From NCBI GenBank assembly GCA_934533135.1, contig CAKTBG010000003.1, positions 1 to 64,000 on the forward strand: a DNA stretch of 64,000 nt. The letters are read 5' to 3'. The notes beneath the pieces are model-generated. The model saw only the letters and a list, made by a program, of their open reading frames with translations. It was not told the origin of the DNA and did no database searches. How positions within the stretch are numbered: the first letter of the stretch is position 1; each line of letters opens with the position of its first letter. This DNA is from an uncultured Faecalibacterium sp. Lineage in GTDB: Bacteria > Bacillota > Clostridia > Oscillospirales > Ruminococcaceae. The translations under genes and the position numbers were made by a program. Positions 3,536 through 29,210 of the stretch are shown piece by piece.

Positions 3536-3999
3536 TCAAATTCGTACGTCTGGATTACCGTCTGCTGCACGGTCAGGTGGTATTCTCGTGGACCGGCCAT
3601 GTGGGCGCACAGCGCATCATCGTGGTGGACGATGACGCCGCCAACGACGAGATGAAAAAGTCCGCCCTGCTGCTGAGCAAGCCGGCCGGTGTCCGGGTGA
3701 ACATCTTCACGGTGGACAAGACCATCGCCAAGATGCCCAAGGTGGAGCAGCTGGACGAGAAGATCATGATGATCTTCGGCAACACCGCTGCCCTGCTCAA
3801 GTTCTGCCAGGCATACCCCAAGATCAAGGAAATCAACTACGGTGCTGTGGCCAACAAACCCGGCTCCAAGGCTTTTGATCAGTCGGTGTTCCTGACCCCG
3901 GAGGAACAGGCCGACACCCAGAAGCTGCTGGATATGGGCATTAAGATCTACAGCCAGCAGACCCCCACCTTTAAGGTAGTACCCATCGATCACATCTGA
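3532..3999 (+). CDS. PTS mannose/fructose/sorbose-family EIIB component
   Basis: A 155-residue cytoplasmic protein with the EIIB(Man) start VRLDYRLLHGQVV; the histidine at residue 13 takes phosphate from EIIA and gives it to the incoming sugar. The family feature VDDDAANDEMKKSAL follows, and the length is normal. The ATG overlaps the EIIA stop codon, so the two are translationally coupled. It works with EIIC and EIID encoded next. Confidence 0.92.
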   Translation: MIKFVRLDYRLLHGQVVFSWTGHVGAQRIIVVDDDAANDEMKKSALLLSKPAGVRVNIFTVDKTIAKMPKVEQLDEKIMMIFGNTAALLKFCQAYPKIKEINYGAVANKPGSKAFDQSVFLTPEEQADTQKLLDMGIKIYSQQTPTFKVVPIDHI

Positions 4000-4030
4000 T
4001 CGTAAGGAGATAAGAAGGAGGAATTGACCC

Positions 4031-4840
4031 ATGTTTGTTACCGCACTGCTTCTGGGTCTGGTTGGCGTGTTCTGCATTCTGGACTCGCGCATTCTGGGCC
4101 GCATGAACTTCGAGCGTCCGCTCATCACCTGCACCATCGTCGGTGCGCTGCTGGGTGATCTGCAGACCGGCCTGACCCTTGGCGCATCCATTGAGCTGAT
4201 GAGCCTTGGCATCGTGAACATCGGCGCTGCACAACCCCCGGATATGAACATGGCTGCCATCATCTGCGCAGCCTTTGCCATCCTGACCGATGCTTCTGCC
4301 GAGACTGCTCTGGCACTGGCCATCCCCATCGCTGTTCTGGGTCAGATGCTGGGCGTAGTGATGCGCACCATCCTGTCCAACCTGACCCACGTTGCCGACC
4401 GTGCCATTCAGGAAGGCAAGTTCCGCAAGGCATGGAGTATGCACATCGTCTGGGGCACGGTGCTGTACAGCCTGATGTACTTCATCCCCATCTTCCTGTC
4501 CGTCTACTTCGGCACTGATCTGGTGCAGAAGATCGTGGCCTTTATCCCCGCATGGCTGACCGATGGCCTGAACCTCGGCAGTAAGTTCCTTACCGCTTAC
4601 GGTATTGCCCTGCTGCTGTCCACCATGCTCAACCGCGATCTGACCGTTTACTTCCTGCTGGGCTTCTTCTTTGTGGGTTACCTGGGTCTGGACGTCACCG
4701 CTGTGGCGATCTTCGCCGCAATTCTGGCTGTGATCCTGACCGGTCTGAAGTATGGCAAGGGCGCACCCGCCGCAGCCGCAGCCGGTGCAGCTGCTGCCAA
4801 CCCGGACTACGACCCGCTGGAAGACGACGATGATCTTTGA
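4031..4840 (+). CDS. PTS mannose/fructose/sorbose-family EIIC component
   Basis: A 269-residue membrane protein with many hydrophobic helices. The segments LGDLQTGLTLGASIELMSLG and IGAAQPPDMNMAAIICAAFA are diagnostic of EIIC(Man), the sugar-translocating subunit that works together with EIID. The tail is acidic (ending PLEDDDDL) after an alanine-rich linker, which is unusual but harmless for the call. AGGAGG precedes the ATG by about 8 nt. It lies 31 nt after EIIB and 15 nt before EIID. Confidence 0.92.
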   Translation: MFVTALLLGLVGVFCILDSRILGRMNFERPLITCTIVGALLGDLQTGLTLGASIELMSLGIVNIGAAQPPDMNMAAIICAAFAILTDASAETALALAIPIAVLGQMLGVVMRTILSNLTHVADRAIQEGKFRKAWSMHIVWGTVLYSLMYFIPIFLSVYFGTDLVQKIVAFIPAWLTDGLNLGSKFLTAYGIALLLSTMLNRDLTVYFLLGFFFVGYLGLDVTAVAIFAAILAVILTGLKYGKGAPAAAAAGAAAANPDYDPLEDDDDL

Positions 4841-4855: not shown

Positions 4856-5692
4856 ATGAGCAACGCAACCAAGACTGCAAAGCGCAGCGACTTCAAGAAA
4901 TACTTCCAGTTCATGTGGCGCTCCCTGAACATTCAGGCCTCCTGGAACTACGAACGTCAGATGAACATGGGCTTTTTGTACGGCATCGCTCCCACGCTGA
5001 ACGAGCTGTACCCCGATGAGAGCGATCCTGAACAGCTGGCGCACAAAAAGGAAGCCTACGAGCGCGAGATGGCGTTCTACAACTGCACCCCGCAGACCAG
5101 TGCCTTTACGCTGGGTCTGGCTGCTTCCATGGAGGAGCAGTACGCCGCCGACCGTGAAAACTTCAACCCGGAGACCATCAACGCCGTCAAGACCTCGCTG
5201 ATGGGTCCCCTGTCCGGTGTGGGCGACTCCTTCTTCCAGGGCACTGTCCGCCTGATCGCTTTTGGTCTGGGCATCTCTCTGGCACAGCAGGGTAACGTTC
5301 TGGGCCCCATTCTGGCCATGATCCTCTCCATCGTCCCCGCTGTGCTGGTCACATGGTTTGCCGGTAAGCTGGGCTATACCATGGGCAGCAAGTACCTGAC
5401 CAAGCTCAACGGCGGCATGATGGACAAGCTGATGTACGTCTGCGGCATCGTAGGCCTGATGGTCATTGGTGCCATGGTGGCAAGTATGGTGGGTCTGACC
5501 ACCCCCATCACCTTCGCAAGCACCGGTCTGGTGCTGCAGGATGTGCTGAACAGCATTCTGCCGAATCTTCTGAACCTTGGCATCGTGATGCTGATGTACA
5601 CCCTGATCCGCAAAAAGGTCAAGACCGGCTGGCTGCTGGTCATCTGCATCGTGGGCGGTGTTGCTATCAACGCCCTTGGTCTGTTGGTGTAA
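4856..5692 (+). CDS. PTS mannose/fructose/sorbose-family EIID component
   Basis: 278 residues. The N-terminal half shows the EIID(Man) pattern: FMWRSLNIQASWNYERQMNMG, then ASMEEQYAAD and VKTSLMGPLSGVGDSFFQGT. The C-terminal part is a set of membrane helices. Together with EIIC it forms the membrane channel. It completes a full mannose-family transporter. The next gene, 86 nt away with its own ribosome binding site, encodes a FrlB-like deglycase, which hints at the substrate. Confidence 0.92.
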   Translation: MSNATKTAKRSDFKKYFQFMWRSLNIQASWNYERQMNMGFLYGIAPTLNELYPDESDPEQLAHKKEAYEREMAFYNCTPQTSAFTLGLAASMEEQYAADRENFNPETINAVKTSLMGPLSGVGDSFFQGTVRLIAFGLGISLAQQGNVLGPILAMILSIVPAVLVTWFAGKLGYTMGSKYLTKLNGGMMDKLMYVCGIVGLMVIGAMVASMVGLTTPITFASTGLVLQDVLNSILPNLLNLGIVMLMYTLIRKKVKTGWLLVICIVGGVAINALGLLV

Positions 5693-9156: not shown

Positions 9157-9294
9157 CAAAACGTGCAAAGGGTGCAAATCGTTGCAAAATCGGACAAAGG
9201 GTGCAGAAACTCGGAACTCAAAACCTGCGATGTACCGCAAAGAAATGGCGTTAAAACGTAACTTCCAAAAATTGAGGGAATCGCCCGGCGTGCG

Positions 9295-9339
9295 CTACGA
9301 ATCAGTAGGCCGGGGGTTCGAGTCCCTTCCATCGCACCA
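9295..9339 (+). mobile_element. 3' fragment of a tRNA (Arg-ACG-like), probable attachment site
   Basis: The stretch contains an anticodon-loop-like CTACGAA, a T arm with GGTTCGAGTCCC, the 3' acceptor strand CCATCGC, a discriminator A and an encoded CCA. No matching 5' acceptor (GCGATGG) or D arm exists upstream, so this is not a complete tRNA. Such 3' fragments are left when an integrase uses the tRNA end as its core site. The anticodon assignment is tentative. Confidence 0.65.
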
Positions 9340-9406
9340 AGAAAAACCAGAACACATTCGTGTTCTGGTTTTTCTTTTTTGTCTGCACGATGGAAGGGGC
9401 TCGAAC
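9316..9406. repeat. Inverted copy of the tRNA 3' end enclosing a terminator
   Basis: Bases 9316-9334 of the tRNA fragment reappear inverted at 9388-9406 with one mismatch. Between them lies a hairpin (CCAGAACACA, loop, TGTTCTGG) followed by a T-rich tract ending near 9380, a good rho-independent terminator. The whole forms a long nested palindrome. Confidence 0.7.
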
Positions 9407-9461
9407 AGGGCGGCGGTGCGCAGTGCCGTAAACAAAGCCGCTTTCGTTACAGTCGTACCGG

Positions 9462-9490
9462 TTGCGTCGGCGGGGATCCCGTCTTATAAT
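9462..9490 (+). promoter_or_regulatory. Promoter of the FadR-type regulator gene
   Basis: TTGCGT at 9462-9467 and a perfect TATAAT at 9485-9490 with a 17-nt spacer. In 9024-9527 the other signals are the 11-bp repeats, the tRNA fragment and its inverted copy. Confidence 0.7.
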
Positions 9491-9527
9491 AGAAAGGAAC
9501 GAACCATGCAGAGCGGGGGAAAAGCGG

Positions 9528-10268
9528 ATGAGCGAATTTGCACATTTGAAGAACAAGCTTCTGGCCGAACAGGTCGAGGATCAGATTTACCACTATATTC
9601 TGGATACGCCTCTTGAGCCGGGGGCCAAGCTCCCCAACGAATTTGAGCTGGGCGAAAAGTTCGGCGTGGGGCGTAGCACCATCCGGGAGGCTGTCAAGCT
9701 GTTGTCCAGCAAGGGCGTTCTGGAGGTGCGGCGGGGCTCCGGCACCTATGTCGTGACCACCACCAAGGGGCTGTCCGACCCGCTGGGTCTGCGCTCGGTC
9801 AAGGACAAGAACCGGCTGGCGATGGATCTGGTGAATGTCCGCCTTCTGCTGGAGCCGGGCATTGCGGAGATGGCGGCGCAGCACGCCACCGACGAGGACA
9901 TCGAGCGGCTGCGGCGGCTCTGTGAACGGGTGGAGACCAAGATCCACGCGGGCGACCGCTACATCGAGGACGACATCGCTTTCCACACCTGCATTGCGGA
10001 GAGCAGCAAGAATACGGTGGTCGAGCAGCTGATCCCGGTGATCGACACCGCCGTGATGATGTTCGTCAATGTCACCCACAAAAAGCTGATCGACGAGACC
10101 ATCATGACCCATCGGATGATCGTGGAGGCCATTGCCAAGCACGACCCCATCGGGGCAAAGGCGGCCATGGTGATGCACCTGAACTTCAACCGCACCTACA
10201 TCAAGAAACTCTACGACGGCGAGGACCCGGATGACGGCTCGGTCGGCATCGCGGAATTTGTCAAGTGA
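9528..10268 (+). CDS. FadR/FCD-family GntR transcriptional regulator
   Basis: 246 residues. The winged helix covers residues 5-80 (LAEQVEDQIYHYIL, then GRSTIREAVKLLSSKGVLEV and RRGSGTYV). The C-terminal all-helical FCD domain (about 95-230) has the family aspartate and histidines for a bound metal or sugar acid (DDIAFHTCIAESSKN, MVMHLNFN). Start ATG 9528 follows GGGGGA. FCD regulators mostly respond to hexuronates, gluconate, galactonate and other carboxylates. The next two genes encode a sugar-acid dehydratase and a gluconate-type permease, so it very probably controls them. Confidence 0.88.
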   Translation: MSEFAHLKNKLLAEQVEDQIYHYILDTPLEPGAKLPNEFELGEKFGVGRSTIREAVKLLSSKGVLEVRRGSGTYVVTTTKGLSDPLGLRSVKDKNRLAMDLVNVRLLLEPGIAEMAAQHATDEDIERLRRLCERVETKIHAGDRYIEDDIAFHTCIAESSKNTVVEQLIPVIDTAVMMFVNVTHKKLIDETIMTHRMIVEAIAKHDPIGAKAAMVMHLNFNRTYIKKLYDGEDPDDGSVGIAEFVK

Positions 10269-10271
10269 TCC

Positions 10272-10306
10272 ATCCCCTGCACCCCGGGCGGTGCGGGGGA
10301 TTTTTT
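10272..10306 (+). terminator. Terminator of the FadR-type gene
   Basis: CCCCTGCACC pairs with GGTGCGGGGG around a short loop, followed by ATTTTTT. Confidence 0.88.
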
Positions 10307-10456
10307 GCAGGCAAAGTTGTCTGATGACTTTTGGAACGGATTCTACAAAAAAGGATGGTTTTGGAAGAAAGGTTGGGGAAACTCCCGCCGATTTGGTGGA
10401 AACGCTTCATGTATCCAAGATTTTTTGCACATAAAGTGGAACGAATCGGGGACGAC

Positions 10457-20233: not shown

Positions 20234-20430
20234 ATGCCAAGGCCTCTCCTACTAGGAGAGGTGGCAAAGCCGTCAGGCTTTGACGGAGAGGTTGTACGGA
20301 GAAGCCGTCGGGAATACGCTTGTCCAACCTCTCAGTCTGCTCCGCAGACAGCCATTCCCCTTCTGGCACGAATGTGCCACCTCCCCCGGCCGGGGGAGTC
20401 TTTCCTTGTAGGGGAGCCTTTGGCAAAGAG
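20234..20430. repeat. REP-like palindromic element pair B (argB/argD)
   Basis: Two units facing each other: TGCCAAGGCCTCTCCTACTA...GACGGAGAGGTT, then AACCTCTCAGTC...GGCAAAGAG. It fills most of the 290-bp gap between argB and argD. Confidence 0.85.
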
Positions 20431-20468: not shown

Positions 20469-21671
20469 ATGGATTCCGAAAAAGTCATCAAGCGGGACAA
20501 CGAATACGTCCTGCACACCTATAACCGCAACCCCATCGCCCTTGAGAAAGGCCACGGCCTCTATGCCGAAGGCCCCGAAGGGCAGAAGTATCTCGATTTC
20601 ACCAGCGGCATCGGCGTCAACAGTCTGGGCTACTGCGACCTGACGTGGGCGGAGGCAGTCTCCGAGCAGGCGCACAAGCTGCAGCACACCTCCAACCTGT
20701 ACTACACCGCCCCCTGCGGCAAGCTGGCCAAGAAGCTCTGCAAGCGCACCGGCATGTCCAAGGTCTTCTTCGGCAACTCGGGTGCCGAGGCCAACGAGGG
20801 CGCGATCAAGGCAGCCCGCAAGTACAGTTTCGACCACTACGGCAAGGATCGTGATGTGGTCATCACGCTGGTCAACAGCTTCCATGGGCGCACCCTTGCC
20901 ACCCTGACCGCGACCGGTCAGGAGGTGTTCCACAACTATTTCGGCCCCTTCAACGAGGGCTTCCAGTATGCACCCGCCGGAGACATTGCGGCTCTGACCG
21001 AGATGGTGGATCGCCACACCTGCGCCGTCATGATGGAGCTGGTGCAGGGCGAAGGCGGCGTGGTCGCGCTGAGCCCGGAGTATGTGCAGGCCGTCCGCGC
21101 CCTCTGCGATGAAAGAGACCTCGTCCTGATCGTGGACGAGGTGCAGACCGGCGTAGGCCGCACGGGTACCTTCCTCTGCTGCGAACACTACGGCCTCAAG
21201 CCCGATATCGTCACCCTCGCCAAGGGGCTGGGCGGCGGCCTGCCCATCGGTGCGGTCCTGCTGAACGAAAAGACCGCCGAGGGCATGGGCGCAGGTTCGC
21301 ATGGTTCCACCTTCGGCGGCAACCCGGTGGTCTGCGCCGGTGCCAATGTGGTTGTGGATCGGCTGGACGCCAGCTTTCTTGCCAGCGTCAATGAGCGTGC
21401 CGTCCAGCTCCGCACCGGGCTGGCCAAGCTGCCCCGCGTCAAGAGCATTTCGGGCATCGGCCTGATGATCGGCATCGAGTTCCTCGAGGGCATCAAGGCG
21501 GCCGACGTGCTGGCCGCCTGCCGCGAAAAGGGTCTGCTGGTGCTGACCGCAAAGACCCGTCTCCGCCTGCTGCCGCCCCTGACCCTGACCGAGCACGACG
21601 TCGAAAAAGCGTTGGAGATCCTGGGTCAGGTGCTGGAAGAAATGCAGCCCAACGCGGAGGCAAAGGCATGA
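20469..21671 (+). CDS. argD: Acetylornithine aminotransferase
   Basis: 400 residues, class III PLP aminotransferase. FFGNSGAEANEGAIKAARKY, DEVQTGVGRTGTFLCCE and the PLP lysine in VTLAKGLGGGLPIGAVLL are intact, and HGSTFGGNPVVCAGA follows. It makes N-acetylornithine from the semialdehyde. GGGAGG lies 10 nt before ATG 20469. It overlaps argF by 4 nt. The REP pair upstream may weaken or modulate read-through from argB. Confidence 0.95.
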   Translation: MDSEKVIKRDNEYVLHTYNRNPIALEKGHGLYAEGPEGQKYLDFTSGIGVNSLGYCDLTWAEAVSEQAHKLQHTSNLYYTAPCGKLAKKLCKRTGMSKVFFGNSGAEANEGAIKAARKYSFDHYGKDRDVVITLVNSFHGRTLATLTATGQEVFHNYFGPFNEGFQYAPAGDIAALTEMVDRHTCAVMMELVQGEGGVVALSPEYVQAVRALCDERDLVLIVDEVQTGVGRTGTFLCCEHYGLKPDIVTLAKGLGGGLPIGAVLLNEKTAEGMGAGSHGSTFGGNPVVCAGANVVVDRLDASFLASVNERAVQLRTGLAKLPRVKSISGIGLMIGIEFLEGIKAADVLAACREKGLLVLTAKTRLRLLPPLTLTEHDVEKALEILGQVLEEMQPNAEAKA

Positions 21672-22585
21672 AAAATCTGCTGAAAATGAGCGACCTGACC
21701 CCCGCTGAGGTGGCGCACATCCTCGATGTGGCCGACCAGCTCAAGGCAGAGCAGAAGGCCGGTGGAAATCCGCCCCTGCTCAAAGGGAAAAGCGTCGCGC
21801 TGATGTTCTCCAAAAGCTCGACCCGCACCCGCACCAGCTTTGAGGTGGGCGTGTACCAGCTGGGCGGTCTTGGCAACTACATGAACGCCGCCACCGAGCT
21901 GCAGTCCGGCCGGGGCGAGCCGCTTAAGGATACCGCCCGAGTGCTGGGCCGCTACTACGATTGCGTGGTCTGGCGCACCTACCGGCAGCGCGATCTGGAA
22001 GAGTTTGCAGAGTATGCGGGCGTGCCGGTCATCAATGGCCTGACCGATTACGCGCATCCCTGTCAGGTGCTGGCCGACCTCATGACCATCCGGGAACGCC
22101 GGGGTGCGCTTGAAGCGCAGAAGCTCTGCTTTGTCGGCGACGGCAGCAGCATGGCCAACAGCCTCATCGTGGGCGGCCTGCTGGCGGGCATGAGCGTCAC
22201 CTGCGTCTGCCCCCGCAATTACCGTCCGGCGGCGGACGTGGTGATGTTCGCCCATAAGTACGGCGACAAATTCCACCTGACCACCGACCCCGCCGAAGGC
22301 GTCCAAGACGCCGACGTGGTGGTGACGGCCATCTGGAACACCGCCGCACCCGGCACCCGCGAGAGTGAGGAGCGTCTGCGGGAGTTCGCAGGCTACCAGC
22401 TGACCGGCAGCCTTTTGCAGGCCGCAAAGCCCGACTGCATGGTGCTCCATTGCCTGCCCGCCCACCGCGGCGAGGAAATCTCCACCGCCGTCTTTGAATC
22501 CCACGCCGATGAGATCTTCGCCGAGGCCGAGAACCGCCTCCATGTCCAGAAGGCCGTGCTGTCCATCCTGCTGGCGGGGAAATAA
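21668..22585 (+). CDS. argF: Ornithine carbamoyltransferase
   Basis: 305 residues. Carbamoyl-phosphate motif KSSTRTRTSFEVG, HPCQVLADLMT, the ornithine-binding block with DGSSMANSLIVGGLLAGM, and the catalytic HCLPAHRGEE. It carbamoylates ornithine to citrulline, which ArgG uses. It is the last gene of the set and is followed by a strong terminator. Carbamoyl-phosphate synthase genes are not in the window. Confidence 0.96.
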   Translation: MKNLLKMSDLTPAEVAHILDVADQLKAEQKAGGNPPLLKGKSVALMFSKSSTRTRTSFEVGVYQLGGLGNYMNAATELQSGRGEPLKDTARVLGRYYDCVVWRTYRQRDLEEFAEYAGVPVINGLTDYAHPCQVLADLMTIRERRGALEAQKLCFVGDGSSMANSLIVGGLLAGMSVTCVCPRNYRPAADVVMFAHKYGDKFHLTTDPAEGVQDADVVVTAIWNTAAPGTRESEERLREFAGYQLTGSLLQAAKPDCMVLHCLPAHRGEEISTAVFESHADEIFAEAENRLHVQKAVLSILLAGK

Positions 22586-22609: not shown

Positions 22610-22653
22610 CAGCGTCCGCCGCGGTTCGTAGAACCGGGCGGACGCTGCTTTTG
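22610..22653 (+). terminator. Terminator of the arginine operon
   Basis: CAGCGTCCGCC pairs with GGCGGACGCTG, followed by CTTTT. It lies between the convergent argF and toxin genes. Confidence 0.88.
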
Positions 22654-22662
22654 GTTATAAGA

Positions 22663-23145
22663 TTAGGATTTTCCGAGCAATGTGGCTTCGATGGCAAGAA
22701 CATCCGGAAAGATCAGCGGAACACCTTTTCGCTGGAGTGCAAGAACGCGCTTGGCTTTCTCGAGAAGTTCTTTCTCAAAGACTCCATCGATCCGAACGGG
22801 AACGCGGGTGCGTTTGTCGATGTATTCGTTGACGATGTAAACGGATGTGACCGGACACATATTTTGGATCAGAAAGGCTTTTTCGTAACCGAGGACATTG
22901 CCAAAGGCAATGGTGTCACAGCGATGATAACGCTGTATCTTTTTATTGTAGTATGTACGGAATTTGGACACCTGAGAGGAAAACGGGATCATCCAGTAAA
23001 GGCCGGTGGATTTTTCCTCGAAAGCATAGAAACAAGGGCGGCCGTGCAACTGACCGTTGATGGTCTCCTTGTTCTGCATCAGATGCGGATCGGGAAAGTC
23101 GATAAAGTACTGATCGTCGATGTAGTAGAAATGCCCTTTATCCAT
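22663..23145 (-). CDS. cptN: Type III toxin-antitoxin toxin, ToxN/AbiQ family (CptN-like endoribonuclease)
   Basis: 160 residues. After a short beta-rich start (MDKGHFYYIDDQYFIDFPDP) comes RPCFYAF and then YWMIPFSSQVSKF at residues 50-62. The P-x-S-S...K pattern fits the active-site loop of ToxN/AbiQ ribonucleases, and the body (KKIQRYHRCDTIAFG, EKAFLIQNMCPVTS) resembles CptN from gut Clostridia as I recall it. ATG 23145 follows GAGG at 8 nt. Directly upstream lie a terminator, 46-nt tandem repeats with pseudoknot pairing, and a strong promoter, exactly the type III layout. The toxin would cleave cellular mRNAs unless held by the antitoxin RNA, and such systems can act against phages. The stretch is visibly more AT-rich than its neighbours, suggesting transfer. 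Confidence 0.88.
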   Translation of the reverse strand: MDKGHFYYIDDQYFIDFPDPHLMQNKETINGQLHGRPCFYAFEEKSTGLYWMIPFSSQVSKFRTYYNKKIQRYHRCDTIAFGNVLGYEKAFLIQNMCPVTSVYIVNEYIDKRTRVPVRIDGVFEKELLEKAKRVLALQRKGVPLIFPDVLAIEATLLGKS

Positions 23146-23160
23146 CCGTAAAACCTCATA

Positions 23161-23194
23161 AACAATAAAACAGCCCCATCCTTGCGAATGGGGC
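23161..23194 (-). terminator. Terminator between antitoxin RNA and toxin gene
   Basis: On the minus strand GCCCCAT, loop, ATGGGGC is followed by TGTTTTATTGTT. In type III systems such a leaky terminator lets a minority of transcripts reach the toxin gene, setting the RNA-to-protein ratio. Confidence 0.85.
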
Positions 23195-23321
23195 GAAACA
23201 TTTGCACTCGATCTTTTATTAGTCGCATATCGAGAAGCGACAAACATTTGCACTCGGCCTTATTTTAGTTGCGTGCCGAGGAGCAACAAACATTTGAAGA
23301 TGGGCGATAAAGCTTTTCTTC
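23161..23321 (-). ncRNA. cptI: Type III antitoxin RNA, CptI-like, two full 46-nt repeats plus a partial
   Basis: The 9-mer AAACATTTG recurs at 23196, 23242 and 23288, so the unit is 46 nt with about 2.2 copies. Read on the minus strand each unit has four blocks in the order a, b, a', b'. In one unit a is GTCGC with GCGAC and b is CTCGAT with ATCGAG; in the other a is GTTGC with GCAAC and b is CTCGGC with GCCGAG. The pairs interleave, which defines an H-type pseudoknot, and the differences between the units are compensatory on both sides of both helices. The conserved linker (CAAATGTTT on this strand) contains AAAU, a plausible toxin cutting site. The RNA would wrap and inhibit the toxin encoded next. 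Confidence 0.88.
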
Positions 23322-23327
23322 ACTTAT

Positions 23328-23356
23328 AGTATATGCGAGAATGGACGATTTGTCAA
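23328..23356 (-). promoter_or_regulatory. Promoter of the antitoxin-toxin locus
   Basis: On the minus strand TTGACA (23356-23351) and TATACT (23333-23328) are spaced by 17 nt, one of the strongest promoters in the window, as expected for an abundant antitoxin RNA. It starts only 17 nt after the MATE stop codon. Confidence 0.85.
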
Positions 23357-23372: not shown

Positions 23373-24734
23373 TTACGCTCCCTTTTCCAGGATTTTATCA
23401 AACCGGGTAAAGAAGGTGATGGCGGTGATAGCGGCTGCGAGGACATCGCTGATGGGTTCGGCGAGGAAGACGCCGAGGACGGGGTTCGGGAACAGGTGGG
23501 GCAGAAGGAAGATAAGAGGGATCAGCAGGATCAATTTGCGCAGGCAGGCCAGCAGCAGGCTGACTTTGGCCTGCCCCAGTGCCATAAAGCTCTGCTGGCA
23601 GGCAATCTGGACGCCAAAGGCGAAGATGCCGGCCATGTAGATCCGCAACGCCCATTGGGTGTAGTCGATGAGGGCGGCGTCGGAGGTGAAGATGCCGGCC
23701 ACCACGCGGGGGATCAGCATCATGACGACCCAGTAGAGGGTGATGTAGCTGACGCAGAGGATCAGCTGGAAGCGGAAGGCCTCTTTGACCCGCTCTTTTT
23801 TGGCGGCACCGAAGTTGAAGCTGATGACCGGCTGACCGCCCTGACAGATGCCCTGCAGCGGCAGGGTGCCGAGCTGGGAGACGCTGGTGATGACGGTCAT
23901 GGCACCCACGGCGATGTCGCCGCCGTACCGGGCCAGACTGGAACTGAAACTGATGGACAGCAGGCTCTCGGTGGAGAGCATGACGAAGGACGAGATGCCG
24001 AGCCCCATGACGGGCAGGATGATGTTCCTTTCCAGCTTCATCTTGCTGCGGCTGAGCTTCAGGTTGGTCTTGGGGCCGGTGAGGAATTTCAGGATCCACA
24101 CGGCACCCACGGCCTGACTGAGCACCGTGGCGATGGCGGCACCCCGCACGCCCAGCCCGAAGCCAAAGATCAGGAGGGGGTCAAGGATGATGTTGATGAC
24201 GGCACCGATCACGGTGGTCAGCATACTGATCTTGGCAAACCCCTGTGCCGTGATGAAGGGGTTCATGCCCATGACCAGCAGGACGAACACCGTGCCGAGA
24301 ATGTAGATGCGGCTGTACGCCAGACCATAGGGCAGGGTGATGTCGCTGGCACCGAAAAGCCGGAGCAGCGCGGGCGCACCGACCCAGAATACGATGGTCA
24401 GGATCAGCGAAAAGAGCAGCAGCATGGTAAAACTGTTGCTGAGGATCTTTTCGGCCTGCTCCTTGTCGTCCTGCCCCATGGCAATGGCGGTACGGGGCGC
24501 ACCGCCGGCACCGATGAGCATGGCGAAGGCGTTCATCAGCATCAGGATGGGCGCAAACAGCCCCACGCCGGTCAGAGCCGACGCGCCGATGCCCTCGATG
24601 TGGCCGATGTAAATGCGGTCTACGATGTTGTACAGCAGGTTGACCACCTGCGCCACCACCGCGGGGATCATGAGCTGGAGCAGGAGTTTTTTTACGTCGC
24701 CGCTGCCCATGTCCTGTTTTTTCTGTGCTGCCAT
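23373..24734 (-). CDS. MATE-family multidrug efflux transporter
   Basis: 453 residues and 12 predicted membrane helices in two similar halves, the normal MATE architecture. Family stretches include MIPAVVAQVVNLLYNIVDRIYIG near the start, GAGGAPRTAIAMGQ and GICQGGQPVISFNFGAAKKE. It exports drugs or metabolites using a sodium or proton gradient. A perfect 14-bp palindrome lies between promoter and start, so it is probably under a local repressor. No terminator is visible between its stop and the antitoxin promoter. Confidence 0.93.
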   Translation of the reverse strand: MAAQKKQDMGSGDVKKLLLQLMIPAVVAQVVNLLYNIVDRIYIGHIEGIGASALTGVGLFAPILMLMNAFAMLIGAGGAPRTAIAMGQDDKEQAEKILSNSFTMLLLFSLILTIVFWVGAPALLRLFGASDITLPYGLAYSRIYILGTVFVLLVMGMNPFITAQGFAKISMLTTVIGAVINIILDPLLIFGFGLGVRGAAIATVLSQAVGAVWILKFLTGPKTNLKLSRSKMKLERNIILPVMGLGISSFVMLSTESLLSISFSSSLARYGGDIAVGAMTVITSVSQLGTLPLQGICQGGQPVISFNFGAAKKERVKEAFRFQLILCVSYITLYWVVMMLIPRVVAGIFTSDAALIDYTQWALRIYMAGIFAFGVQIACQQSFMALGQAKVSLLLACLRKLILLIPLIFLLPHLFPNPVLGVFLAEPISDVLAAAITAITFFTRFDKILEKGA

Positions 24735-26050: not shown

Positions 26051-26187
26051 ACCTCTCAGTCTCGCTCACGCTCGACAGCTCCCCTACTGAGGGGAGCCCT
26101 TGGCAAAGAGATTTTGCTTTTCGGGGATTGCCAAGGCCTCTCCTACAAGGAGAGGTGGCATTGCGCAAGCAATGACGGAGAGGTTGG
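26051..26187. repeat. REP-like palindromic element pair C (ldh/speA)
   Basis: ACCTCTCAGTC...GGGGAGCCCTTGGCA is followed by its facing partner TGCCAAGGCCTCTCCTACAAGGAGAGGTGGCA...GACGGAGAGGTT. Confidence 0.85.
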
Positions 26188-26224
26188 ACAAGAAGAATTT
26201 ACCCTGATTTTTCAAAATTTAGAA

Positions 26225-26259: not shown

Positions 26260-26631
26260 GATTTTGGAAGGATGAGAGTGATCAGGGTCTTTCCGAGAGC
26301 AATACACTGGGACCACCCGAACAAGCGGGTCGAGGCCATACGGACAGCCGGGTCCACTGCCGACCGGCGGCGTTTTCGCTGCCATTATTGATGGAGTTTG
26401 AAGCTCAAATTTTATAAGTTGGTTTACTTAAAACCAGTTGGTTTCTTACAAACCGAACGGCGCGCGTCGCGCTGGCTTGTGAAACGGTCAATACGAGTAG
26501 TAAAAGTAGTAATTGCTATATAGACTCTGACATTTCTTCCCTTCCCAATGAGCGAGATTGCAGAAGGACGGCTGCTTTGCGCTTTGGTGCAAAGGATCTT
26601 TGCCGCGCTTTTTGGCAATAGGGGAGCACCT
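26260..26631 (+). ncRNA. Long structured leader RNA of the polyamine operon
   Basis: Between promoter and terminator several hairpins can be drawn: ACCCG with CGGGT near 26315-26330, GGAC with GTCC at 26342-26355, GGCGGCG with CGCTGCC at 26367-26384, two tandem hairpins GGTTT...AAACC at 26421-26455, and GCAAAG with CTTTGC at 26589-26603. No known riboswitch consensus was recognised (guanidine-I, SAM, lysine, FMN and T-box patterns were considered). The ending in a strong terminator suggests control by attenuation. Confidence 0.4.
26278..26391 (+). CDS. Possible 37-residue leader or small protein
   Basis: A GTG at 26278, 6 nt after GGAAGG, opens a 37-codon frame that ends in TGA at 26389-26391; an ATG at 26272 is in frame but too close to the ribosome binding site. 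The product is basic (IRVFPRAIHWDHPNKRVEAI, then RRRFRCHY). I do not recognise it. It lies fully inside the long transcribed leader of the polyamine operon. The same bases also form hairpins, so this could be structured RNA rather than a gene. Confidence 0.3.
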   Translation: MIRVFPRAIHWDHPNKRVEAIRTAGSTADRRRFRCHY

Positions 26632-26683: not shown

Positions 26684-26724
26684 GTGCAGAAAAAGCGTTT
26701 TGGGCTGTGAAGAGGTGAATGGAA

Positions 26725-28194
26725 ATGGAAGAAAAAAAGCAGTCCTCCCTGTCGGAGCGGCAGAGCCATGCGCCCATCTATGAGGCGTTGGAGCGGTTCC
26801 GCCAGATGCGGGTGGTCCCCTTTGATGTGCCGGGTCACAAGCGGGGACGCGGCAACCCGGAACTGACCAAGTTTCTGGGGCAGCAGTGCGTGGGCGTGGA
26901 CGTCAACAGCATGAAGCCGCTGGACAACCTCTGCCACCCGGTATCGGTCATCCGGGAAGCTGAGGAGCTGGCAGCCGAAGCCTTTGGCGCGGCACACGCC
27001 TTTTTGATGGTGGGCGGCACCACAAGTGCCGTCCAGAGCATGGTGCTCACGGCCTGCAAGCGGGGTGATGAGATCATCCTGCCCCGCAATGTCCACCGCA
27101 GCGTCATCAATGCACTGGTGCTCTGCGGCGCGGTGCCGGTCTACGTCAACCCCGAGATGGATGCCCGGCTGGGCATTTCCCTCGGCATGAAGCGGGAGCA
27201 GGTGGCCAAGGCCATCGCCGAGCACCCCCATGCCGTGGCGGTGCTGGTGAACAACCCGACCTATTACGGCATCTGCTCGGATCTGAAAGCCATCGTCGAG
27301 ATGGCGCACGCCGCCGGGATGCTCTGCCTTGCAGACGAGGCGCACGGCACCCACTTCTACTTCGGCGAGGGGCTGCCGATCTCGGCCATGGCCGCCGGTG
27401 CGGATATGGCGTCCGTCTCGATGCACAAGAGCGGCGGAAGCCTGACGCAGTCCAGCTTCCTGCTGGCCGGGCCGAACGTCCATGCGGGCTATGTCCGGCA
27501 GATCATCAACCTGACCCAGACCACGTCCGGCAGCTATCTGCTCATGTCCAGTCTGGACATCTCCCGGCGCAACCTTGCCCTGCGCGGCAAGGAGATCTTT
27601 GCGCAGGTCAAGAAGCTGGCCGAATATGCCCGGGAAGAGATCAACGCCATCGGCGGCTACTACGCCTTCGGGCAGGAGCTGGTCAACGGCGATTCGGTCT
27701 ATGCCTTCGACCCCACCAAGCTCAGCGTCCACACGCTGGATATTGGTCTGGCGGGCATCGAGGTCTACGACCTGCTCCGGGATGAGTACGACATCCAGAT
27801 CGAGTTTGGCGACATCGGCAACCTGCTGGCCTACATCTCCATCGGCGACCGGATTCAGGACATCGAGCGGCTGGTCTCGGCACTGGCCGAGATCCGCCGC
27901 CTGTACCAGAAAGATCCCAGTGGCATGATGAGCCACGAATACATTGACCCCGAAGTGGCCGCCAGCCCGCAGGAAGCGTTCTACGCCGACAAGATCAGCC
28001 TGCCCCTCCGGGAGACGGAGGGCAAGGTGTGCAGCGAGTTCGTCATGTGCTATCCTCCGGGAATCCCCATCCTCGCACCCGGCGAAAAGATCACCCGGGA
28101 TATTCTGGATTACATCGAATACGCCAAAGCCATCGGCTGCTCCATGACCGGCCCCGAAGACCCGGACATTGAGCGTCTGAACGTGCTGGCATAA
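26725..28194 (+). CDS. speA: Orn/Lys/Arg decarboxylase, SpeA-type (PLP, fold I)
   Basis: 489 residues. The PLP lysine lies in SVSMHKSGGSLTQSS (around residue 236); LADEAHGTHFYF holds the PLP-ring aspartate. The start FDVPGHKRGRGNPEL and the C-terminal EFVMCYPPGIPILAPGE are the family hallmarks. It is the short Gram-positive form without the N-terminal wing domain. Substrate (arginine or lysine) cannot be fixed from sequence; in Firmicutes spe clusters arginine to agmatine is the usual activity. ATG 26725 is chosen because GAGGTG lies 7 nt before it; ATG 26719 would be too close. speE follows after 12 nt. Confidence 0.9.
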   Translation: MEEKKQSSLSERQSHAPIYEALERFRQMRVVPFDVPGHKRGRGNPELTKFLGQQCVGVDVNSMKPLDNLCHPVSVIREAEELAAEAFGAAHAFLMVGGTTSAVQSMVLTACKRGDEIILPRNVHRSVINALVLCGAVPVYVNPEMDARLGISLGMKREQVAKAIAEHPHAVAVLVNNPTYYGICSDLKAIVEMAHAAGMLCLADEAHGTHFYFGEGLPISAMAAGADMASVSMHKSGGSLTQSSFLLAGPNVHAGYVRQIINLTQTTSGSYLLMSSLDISRRNLALRGKEIFAQVKKLAEYAREEINAIGGYYAFGQELVNGDSVYAFDPTKLSVHTLDIGLAGIEVYDLLRDEYDIQIEFGDIGNLLAYISIGDRIQDIERLVSALAEIRRLYQKDPSGMMSHEYIDPEVAASPQEAFYADKISLPLRETEGKVCSEFVMCYPPGIPILAPGEKITRDILDYIEYAKAIGCSMTGPEDPDIERLNVLA

Positions 28195-29060: not shown

Positions 29061-29210
29061 GGCTCCCCTACAAGGGGAGCTGTCGAGCGAATGCGAGACT
29101 GAGAGGTTGTACAAGATGCGGCTTTGTCTTAACAGCTGCTCTGTCCAACCTCTCCGTCATCGCTGACGCGATGCCACCTCTCCTAGTAGGAGAGGCCTTG
29201 GCAAAGAGAT
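29061..29210. repeat. REP-like palindromic element pair D (speE/CASDH gene)
   Basis: GGCTCCCCTACAAGGGGAGC...GACTGAGAGGTT followed by AACCTCTCCGTCATCGC...GGAGAGGCCTTGGCA. It starts 3 nt after the speE stop and fills the gap within the operon. Confidence 0.85.

Follow-up and report, generated by a model that had tools for sequence, protein, structure and literature searches.

A CptIN type III toxin-antitoxin module in an uncultured Faecalibacterium sp., with two antitoxin pseudoknot classes probably kept distinct by selection

The stretch of DNA analyzed here, referred to as the window, comprises 64,000 nucleotides of contig CAKTBG010000003.1 from an uncultured Faecalibacterium sp. On its minus strand, from position 23356 to 22663, it carries a compact module in which a promoter, a leader hairpin, two 46-nt units, a terminator, a GAGG motif and a gene for a 160-aa protein follow one another. 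The module is bordered by the 3' ends of two further genes, whose product names were assigned by reading. In the list below, S1 and S2 are the two stems of each unit and L2 one of its loops; the unit classes are defined further on.

23373-24734, minus strand: MATE-type transporter gene, its 3' end flanking the module
23328-23356, minus strand: promoter, TTGACA (23356-23351), 17-nt spacer, TATACT (23333-23328), from a consensus scan
23296-23321, minus strand: 5' leader hairpin GAAGA/TCTTC, 5 bp with a 16-nt loop, ending at the first CAAATG
23291-23296, minus strand: CAAATG junction 1, predicted cut site by analogy with the ends of the E. rectale CptI unit (PMC4627078)
23245-23290, minus strand: CptI unit 1, class A, 46 nt
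23287-23283 with 23272-23268, minus strand: S1 of unit 1, GTTGC/GCAAC
23280-23275 with 23258-23253, minus strand: S2 of unit 1, CTCGGC/GCCGAG
23267-23259, minus strand: L2 of unit 1, TAAAATAAG
23245-23250, minus strand: CAAATG junction 2, predicted cut site
23199-23244, minus strand: CptI unit 2, class B, 46 nt
23241-23237 with 23226-23222, minus strand: S1 of unit 2, GTCGC/GCGAC
23234-23229 with 23212-23207, minus strand: S2 of unit 2, CTCGAT/ATCGAG
23221-23213, minus strand: L2 of unit 2, TAATAAAAG
23199-23204, minus strand: CAAATG junction 3, predicted cut site
23173-23194, minus strand: terminator stem-loop between repeats and toxin gene, 9 pairs, 6 of them G-C, with the T-rich tail TGTTTTATTG, from a consensus scan
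23154-23157, minus strand: GAGG, probable ribosome-binding site, from the sequence
22663-23145, minus strand: cptN toxin gene, 160 aa (NF047359, 4rmo_A)
22611-22646, minus strand: inverted repeat AGCGTCCGCC/GGCGGACGCT between the convergent cptN and argF genes, its stem placed by a below-threshold Rfam match
21668-22585, plus strand: argF, its 3' end flanking the module

Most of this layout had been described in an earlier note made from the letters alone, and it was recovered here. The promoter lies where that note put it, with 11 of 12 consensus matches, and is the top-scoring of three promoter-like sites between 22550 and 23420 (mean of 1.0 in shuffled sequence; consensus scan only). The two full 46-nt repeats (23290-23245 and 23244-23199) and the nine-pair terminator that separates them from the gene are likewise in place, the latter being one of seven terminator-like sites counted on both strands (shuffle mean 0.8). 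The third, partial repeat of the same description, however, amounts to little beyond the junction motif, as just three bases of a third copy lie 3' of junction 3. Overall, the succession of promoter, about two repeats of 45-46 nt, terminator and toxin gene agrees in arrangement and repeat number with CptIN loci, for the sizes given in the accessible part of PMC6315513. The inverted repeat at 22611-22646 is possibly a terminator common to cptN and argF. Regarding the leader, a hairpin of at least 5 bp ending no more than 2 nt from the anchored first AAAT was found in 33 of 46 anchored loci of the window group, against 24% of shuffles, a count in which some anchors are misplaced (e.g., in L034, L047 and L119); in many loci, therefore, each junction follows the 3' arm of a helix.

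The protein matches the equivalog model NF047359 of NCBIfam (CptIN family toxin) over residues 4-156 of 160 with 204 bits against a cut-off of 90, and a search of PDB sequences at E up to 1 matched it to 4rmo_A alone, the CptN of E. rectale (E=5.1e-22). Score and homology to the crystallized CptN (4RMO) both uphold the CptIN assignment, and it is practically certain, as judged from sequence, that the locus belongs to this family. The gene had also been called ToxN/AbiQ-like, but Pfam, which includes the ToxN family PF13958, returned 0 families at E up to 1. As PF13958 is not matched while NF047359 is matched far over its cut-off, CptN is the accurate name, and any kinship to ToxN/AbiQ is distant at best. 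PADLOC gave no match to the protein at E up to 1.

Residues were compared in an alignment of 119 non-redundant CptN proteins plus 4RMO (120 rows). Residues R30, S51, S52 and Y104 of the E. rectale protein (CptN_Er) correspond to R34, S54, S55 and Y106 in the window protein, and the column of R30 holds Arg in 120 of 120 rows; on this alignment the RNase core, for which a Ser-Ser-Arg triad is published, looks intact at these four positions. R53, D81 and S85, in turn, are replaced by Q, L and K, so that two adenine-contacting positions are changed in nearly the whole window group, where Q, L and K are the commonest residues (30, 44 and 45 of 47). The L and K at the positions of D81 and S85 could be read as marks of a decayed locus without function. 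Nevertheless, both are usual in the group, the conserved core residues are present, and open frame, promoter, terminator and all stem pairs are intact, which makes decay highly improbable; the locus very probably represents a working module. In itself, it is an ordinary CptIN, a further member of a known family.

The closest characterized relative is the E. rectale system (4RMO), which the window locus resembles in its CptN, in having about two units of some 45 nt that fold as H-type pseudoknots, and in the short L1 and the 9-nt, A-rich L2 ending in G. It differs in its 46-nt units, in its other stems, in the replacement of R53, D81 and S85, and in that unit 1 is of class A, without the kink base at L2 position 4; the published E. 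rectale unit has the features of window class B, namely C-G at S1 pair 3 and a kink pyrimidine at that position. The crystal structure from E. rectale has L2 docked in the S1 minor groove, with U30 as the kink, and antitoxicity is abolished when U30 is deleted or A29 is changed to U (PMC4627078). U30 would be L2 position 4 in the stem register of our alignment. By the dimensions listed in the accessible part of PMC6315513, the window locus also comes near the CptIN of Coprococcus catus GD/7 (160 aa/46 nt/2.2 repeats) and Ruminococcus torques L2-14 (162 aa/46 nt/2.2 repeats), both termed validated (PMC4627078). The same part of that source lists two CptIN for E. rectale ATCC 33656, with 45 and 46 nt (table 3, PMC6315513). 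Among our loci, the sequence closest to 4RMO (L135; 3 substitutions over 155 residues) has two identical units, and its genome, G842, also contains another CptIN, of 46 nt (L119); we infer that G842 is E. rectale ATCC 33656.

We then turned to the two repeats. Both contain the pairing of an H-type pseudoknot as predicted from sequence, with 11 of 11 pairs Watson-Crick in each and with the short L1 and A-rich L2 that characterize CptIN. The units are identical at 36 of 46 bases; of the 10 differences, six make up three pairs changed on both sides and four lie in loops, and no pair is half-changed or broken. Random placement of 10 differences yields at least three whole pairs and no half-hit pair with p=4.5e-4, and random substitution keeping all 11 pairs with at least three double changes occurred in 118 of 2,000,000 draws. 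The double compensatory change claimed in the earlier note is thus real, but its extent has to be corrected, as S1 differs by a single pair (U-A to C-G) and S2 by two. A covariance search for CptI/ToxI with Rfam 15 gave no match in the window and six relatives, L135 among them, a usable CptI model seemingly being absent from that release. A match to the anti-hemB RNA at 23165-23236 (19.5 bits, gathering threshold 49.5) was discarded as chance.

To see how such differences are distributed among relatives, units were located by a script that required a fully paired S1 (G-U allowed) and were assigned by S1 pair 3, U-A defining class A and C-G class B. Toxin copies were dropped if the model match started after position 4 or ended before 115, or if fewer than 200 nt lay upstream, which reduced one set from 161 to 137 copies and left 149 in a later one. 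The tally covers 31 non-redundant loci including the window, with toxins at least 60% identical (one locus per 92% identity group, the one nearest to the window being taken first), and leaves aside loci added later from the class sample around L001. The arrays comprise 23 A-B (the window among them), 1 B-A (L030), 2 A-A (L013 and L026), 4 B-B (L015, L031, L032 and L065) and 1 unclassed (L039, 60.4% identical, with a different S1 and two identical units). Twenty-two of the A-B loci were called by the script, and the remaining one (L119) by eye, with one S1 mismatch. Loci with a single unit also occur among the relatives (L033 and L041). Two details may be recorded here: the A unit of L030 has the same S2 (CTCGGC/GCCGAG) as that of the window, and the mismatch in L119, a locus of the genome with two CptIN, is a U-U in the S1 of unit 2 (GTCGC/GCGTC).

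The two classes differ in more than the pair that defines them. Among 71 units from 38 loci (toxins at least 50% identical), S1 pair 3 is C-G in 37, U-A in 34 and U-G in none; 34 of 34 U-A units carry A at L2 position 4, whereas 35 of 37 C-G units carry another base there. Class A therefore combines U-A at S1 pair 3 with an L2 of type NNAAA followed mostly by a pyrimidine, and class B has C-G, usually together with a pyrimidine at L2 position 4, while the junctions are alike in both units. A label-flip test (5,000 flips, 29 two-unit arrays, 35 columns), in which kinship is ignored, gave p<=0.001 only at S1.3, S1'.3 and L2 positions 2, 4, 5 and 6, and no position-fixed differences in the 3' tail columns tested. 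Moreover, in 22 of the 22 script-classed A-B loci both units resemble the units at their position in other loci more than they resemble each other: mean unit identity is 0.860 for the same position, 0.748 for the own partner and 0.742 across positions. When S1 pair 3 is removed along with L2 positions 1 to 6, the values are 0.873, 0.879 and 0.869, respectively. These 22 loci come from Lachnospiraceae, Veillonella, Hungatella, Acetivibrio and others, one viral contig and the window.

Such a pattern could also be the relic of an old duplication whose copies drifted apart, the classes persisting by descent alone. Consistent with this, most A-B loci lie in one part of the toxin tree, where A-B requires 6 changes against a shuffled mean of 15.3 (7 of 42 inner branches starred, support thus being mostly weak, labels of more distant loci set by eye, and L119 entered as a single A). 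The A/B split may have arisen once, so that the coupling between S1 and L2 does not count as many independent events. However, fourfold sites of the toxin are near saturation (30.5% identical against 27.8% expected by composition, 231 pairs; mean protein identity 68%) while the class-defining bases stay fixed, and the U-G intermediate at S1 pair 3 is found in 0 of 71 units. Neutral divergence is accordingly disfavoured and holds only a small chance of being right, and we consider it likely, with good confidence, that the A and B classes are under selection. The distinction of heterogeneous from homogeneous arrays also takes 6 changes on the tree, and homogeneous arrays therefore seem to have arisen several times. 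The earlier note had supposed that the two units may not be interchangeable; the comparison upholds a class difference kept by selection in this clade, but lends no support to the units being unable to substitute for one another, as A-A, B-B and single-unit loci exist.

Beyond this clade, a parser run over 119 non-redundant CptIN loci found at least two adjacent units in 84, the other 35 being left out of the unit counts. Of these arrays, 81 have two units and 3 have three, and the core identity of the last two units is below 0.95 in 68 and below 0.85 in 50. Units at the same position are more alike than units at different positions in the window group (identities 0.774/0.743, flip p 0.0005), although just 38 of its 70 units resemble their positional counterparts more than their partner once distant members are counted in, as well as in the E. 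rectale-like group (0.917/0.846, p 0.0065) and in groups 3/7/13 (0.768/0.607, p 0.032); group 5 gave 0.877/0.723 with p 0.0565 on five arrays only. Position-fixed pairs are thus seen in two CptIN groups beyond that of the window, and perhaps in a third (group 5). In contrast to these, groups 2 (0.775/0.763, p 0.25) and 6 (0.836/0.889, p 1.0) showed no significant position identity, some of their arrays nonetheless having differing units. The form of the difference varies: in the E. rectale-like group it concerns S1 pair 4 as well as one pair of stem 2, L2 being little changed, but in groups 3 and 5 it concerns entire stems and the length of L2.

ToxIN/AbiQ served as a control. It shares with CptIN the type III principle, in which the toxin RNase processes the repeat RNA that inhibits it, and differs in its toxin family (PF13958, unmatched by the window protein); its rings are described as 3:3 in the accessible part of PMC5086642. 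As Pfam identified ToxN in 1 of 299 Bacilli genomes, too few for a comparison, plasmids were used instead, with 12 arrays chosen from 116 records (L178 and L179 nearly alike). Their 35-39-nt repeats are near-identical, the best adjacent ones reaching 0.90-1.00 (periods of 30-57 scanned). Across the 119 CptIN loci (periods of 38-55), median adjacent-repeat identity is 0.824 and 35 loci reach 0.9, including L110, whose upstream masked N scores 1.00 but is no repeat; 30 shuffled sequences gave a mean of 0.527. The low CptIN identity, together with the retention of two units in 81 of 84 arrays, would fit repeats that differ in order to escape loss by DNA slippage or recombination. Such a pressure predicts difference, though, rather than a conserved identity for each position, and the ToxIN arrays persist with repeats 90-100% identical; we regard this explanation as improbable.

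Taken as a whole, these observations are best explained by a CptIN module with two selected pseudoknot classes, to which we assign a probability of about 0.85. One transcript from the promoter at 23356-23328 would carry the leader hairpin and two tandem pseudoknots; most transcripts would end at 23194-23173, and some would read through into cptN. Cleavage by CptN within the three CAAAU junctions would release the 46-nt pseudoknots, each of which would then occlude the toxin in a closed ring of two proteins and two RNAs, as in the E. rectale complex. The two pseudoknots would represent two tertiary classes held apart by selection, whereas the junctions, which would be expected to touch the toxin, are the same in both. 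The kink of class A may be shifted, since its L2 carries A at position 4 and, mostly, a pyrimidine at position 6.

As to why two classes are kept, our preferred, though tentative, reading is that they mainly serve private pairing: as the S1 of one unit cannot pair with that of its neighbour, each pseudoknot would fold with its own strands before the cut. Two-unit arrays were folded in a nested model without pseudoknots, in which the expected number of S1 cross-unit pairs is 0.15 for natural A-B arrays and 0.19 and 0.13 for A and B taken from different loci (either order), whereas two A units from separate loci reach 2.39 and two such B units 2.86. Among pairs that differ at 6-9 positions the values are 0.02 for A-B (15 arrays) versus 2.25 for A+A and 4.50 for B+B; because cross-pairing of S1 at matched divergence is low only in A+B, the model suggests that the class difference, and not mere divergence, keeps S1 private. 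Total cross-unit pairing is less telling: at the same divergence it is 6.97 for A-B, 6.27 for A with another A and 10.88 for B with another B, so that A-B would be favoured over B+B only and not over A+A. Doubling a locus's own A or own B raises the total to 12.87 or 12.11 from a natural 6.27 (22 loci), but any divergence between the doubled units would bring it down.

Other results weigh against this insulation idea or limit it. The six natural homogeneous arrays have cross-unit totals of 7.09 to 14.24, and in L026 (A-A) the S1 stems pair with themselves at 4.85 and 4.89 of 5, above the A-B means of 1.93 and 2.77. Given the homogeneous arrays in the clade (2 A-A, 4 B-B and L039 of 31), one class can therefore suffice. 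In most parsed E. rectale-like arrays, the S1 difference prevents distal mispairing only, the proximal kind being prevented by stem 2. A rule by which A precedes B in order to block mispairing of neighbouring S1 strands was also considered. In the folding model, swapping the order does raise the number of cross-unit pairs in 18 of 22 loci (mean 6.27 in natural and 7.21 in swapped order), but the rule was dropped as an explanation because S1 cross-pairing stays low after swapping (0.10 proximal, 0.01 distal), because the B-A locus L030 exists and because the S1 difference runs in the opposite direction in the E. rectale-like group.

Besides private pairing, the two classes may be structurally complementary, in which case the complex would be A:CptN:B:CptN and the two-unit transcript a kit for one ring. 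The number of units in 81 of 84 arrays is exactly that of the RNAs in the CptIN ring (PMC4627078), the position-fixed changes lie in S1 and L2 and not in the 3' tail columns tested, and the reversed locus L030 still has one A and one B. Moreover, the two units of L135, whose toxin is near-identical to the crystallized one, do not differ from each other, and a mixed ring could therefore not have appeared in a crystal from a locus of this kind. On the other hand, a single E. rectale repeat confers full antitoxicity (PMC4627078), and the A-A and B-B arrays as well as the single-unit loci L033 and L041 argue against an absolute need for both. That an asymmetric ring with one of each pseudoknot is the resting complex in many CptIN, the pair being the unit of selection, is therefore possible but rather unlikely; if true, loss of either class would alter toxin stability or release.

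Whichever cause is right, sequence comparison suggests that the two repeat copies are not simply duplicates, and the conserved two-class array is the part that goes beyond the earlier note and merits specialist attention. The original description of CptIN is reportedly that of Blower 2012. That paper aside, different conserved repeat classes within one array are undescribed in the type III literature searched, as far as its accessible text goes, and priority is not firm. In the accessible parts of these sources (PMC4627078, PMC5086642, PMC8860590 and PMC6315513), each system is given one consensus repeat. Should CptIN arrays consist of two non-equivalent units under selection, a functional feature is lost from view in consensus repeats, and the E. 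rectale crystal may represent the less common, homogeneous kind. In addition, the natural A-A, B-B, A-B and B-A loci offer test material for the co-evolution of toxin and RNA substrate, and the S1-L2 coupling makes it possible to trace, by sequence, what may be a second register of the A-minor twist.

The distribution of CptN is patchy. Copies over the cut-off were found in 10 of 394 genomes in a sample presumed to be of Oscillospirales, 56 of 397 in one of Lachnospiraceae, 7 of 28 from the family of the Veillonella locus L018, 11 of 60 from the genus of the Roseburia faecis locus L009 and 10 of 291 of the class sample around L001, each sample including its centre genome, a carrier known beforehand. 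The search of 50,697 phage records gave no match for CptN, that of plasmids gave 6 records, all below 60% identity, and that of IMG/VR gave 4 loci. One of the latter, L067, has an A-B CptIN with CptN at 5001-5471, a KilAC/ORF6N antirepressor at 3596-4450 and a tail protein at 9210-10346; as its module lies among phage genes, temperate phages may carry CptIN.

No clean empty site was seen in the three genomes compared at this place (G240, G304 and G352). In G240, the closest relative found (argF 86%, MATE 81%), argF and the MATE gene are 14.6 kb apart, with other genes and no CptN between them (L197 of this genome, 1441 to 16055), and the MATE-argF junction is therefore variable; the 4-kb stretches fetched from G304 and G352 match the window only at argF. 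Elsewhere in the window, an SpF59/ldcC RNA of Rfam lies at 26310-26363 (67.1 bits, gathering threshold 37.2) and precedes an open frame at 26719-28194 that reads as amino-acid decarboxylase-like. Finally, an imperfect dispersed repeat of about 60-130 bp occurs at 20235-20352, 26128-26195 and 29079-29204, its copies being 80-92% identical, and similar sequence is present in L197 near 4010-4191; it looks like an intergenic repeat family of this lineage.
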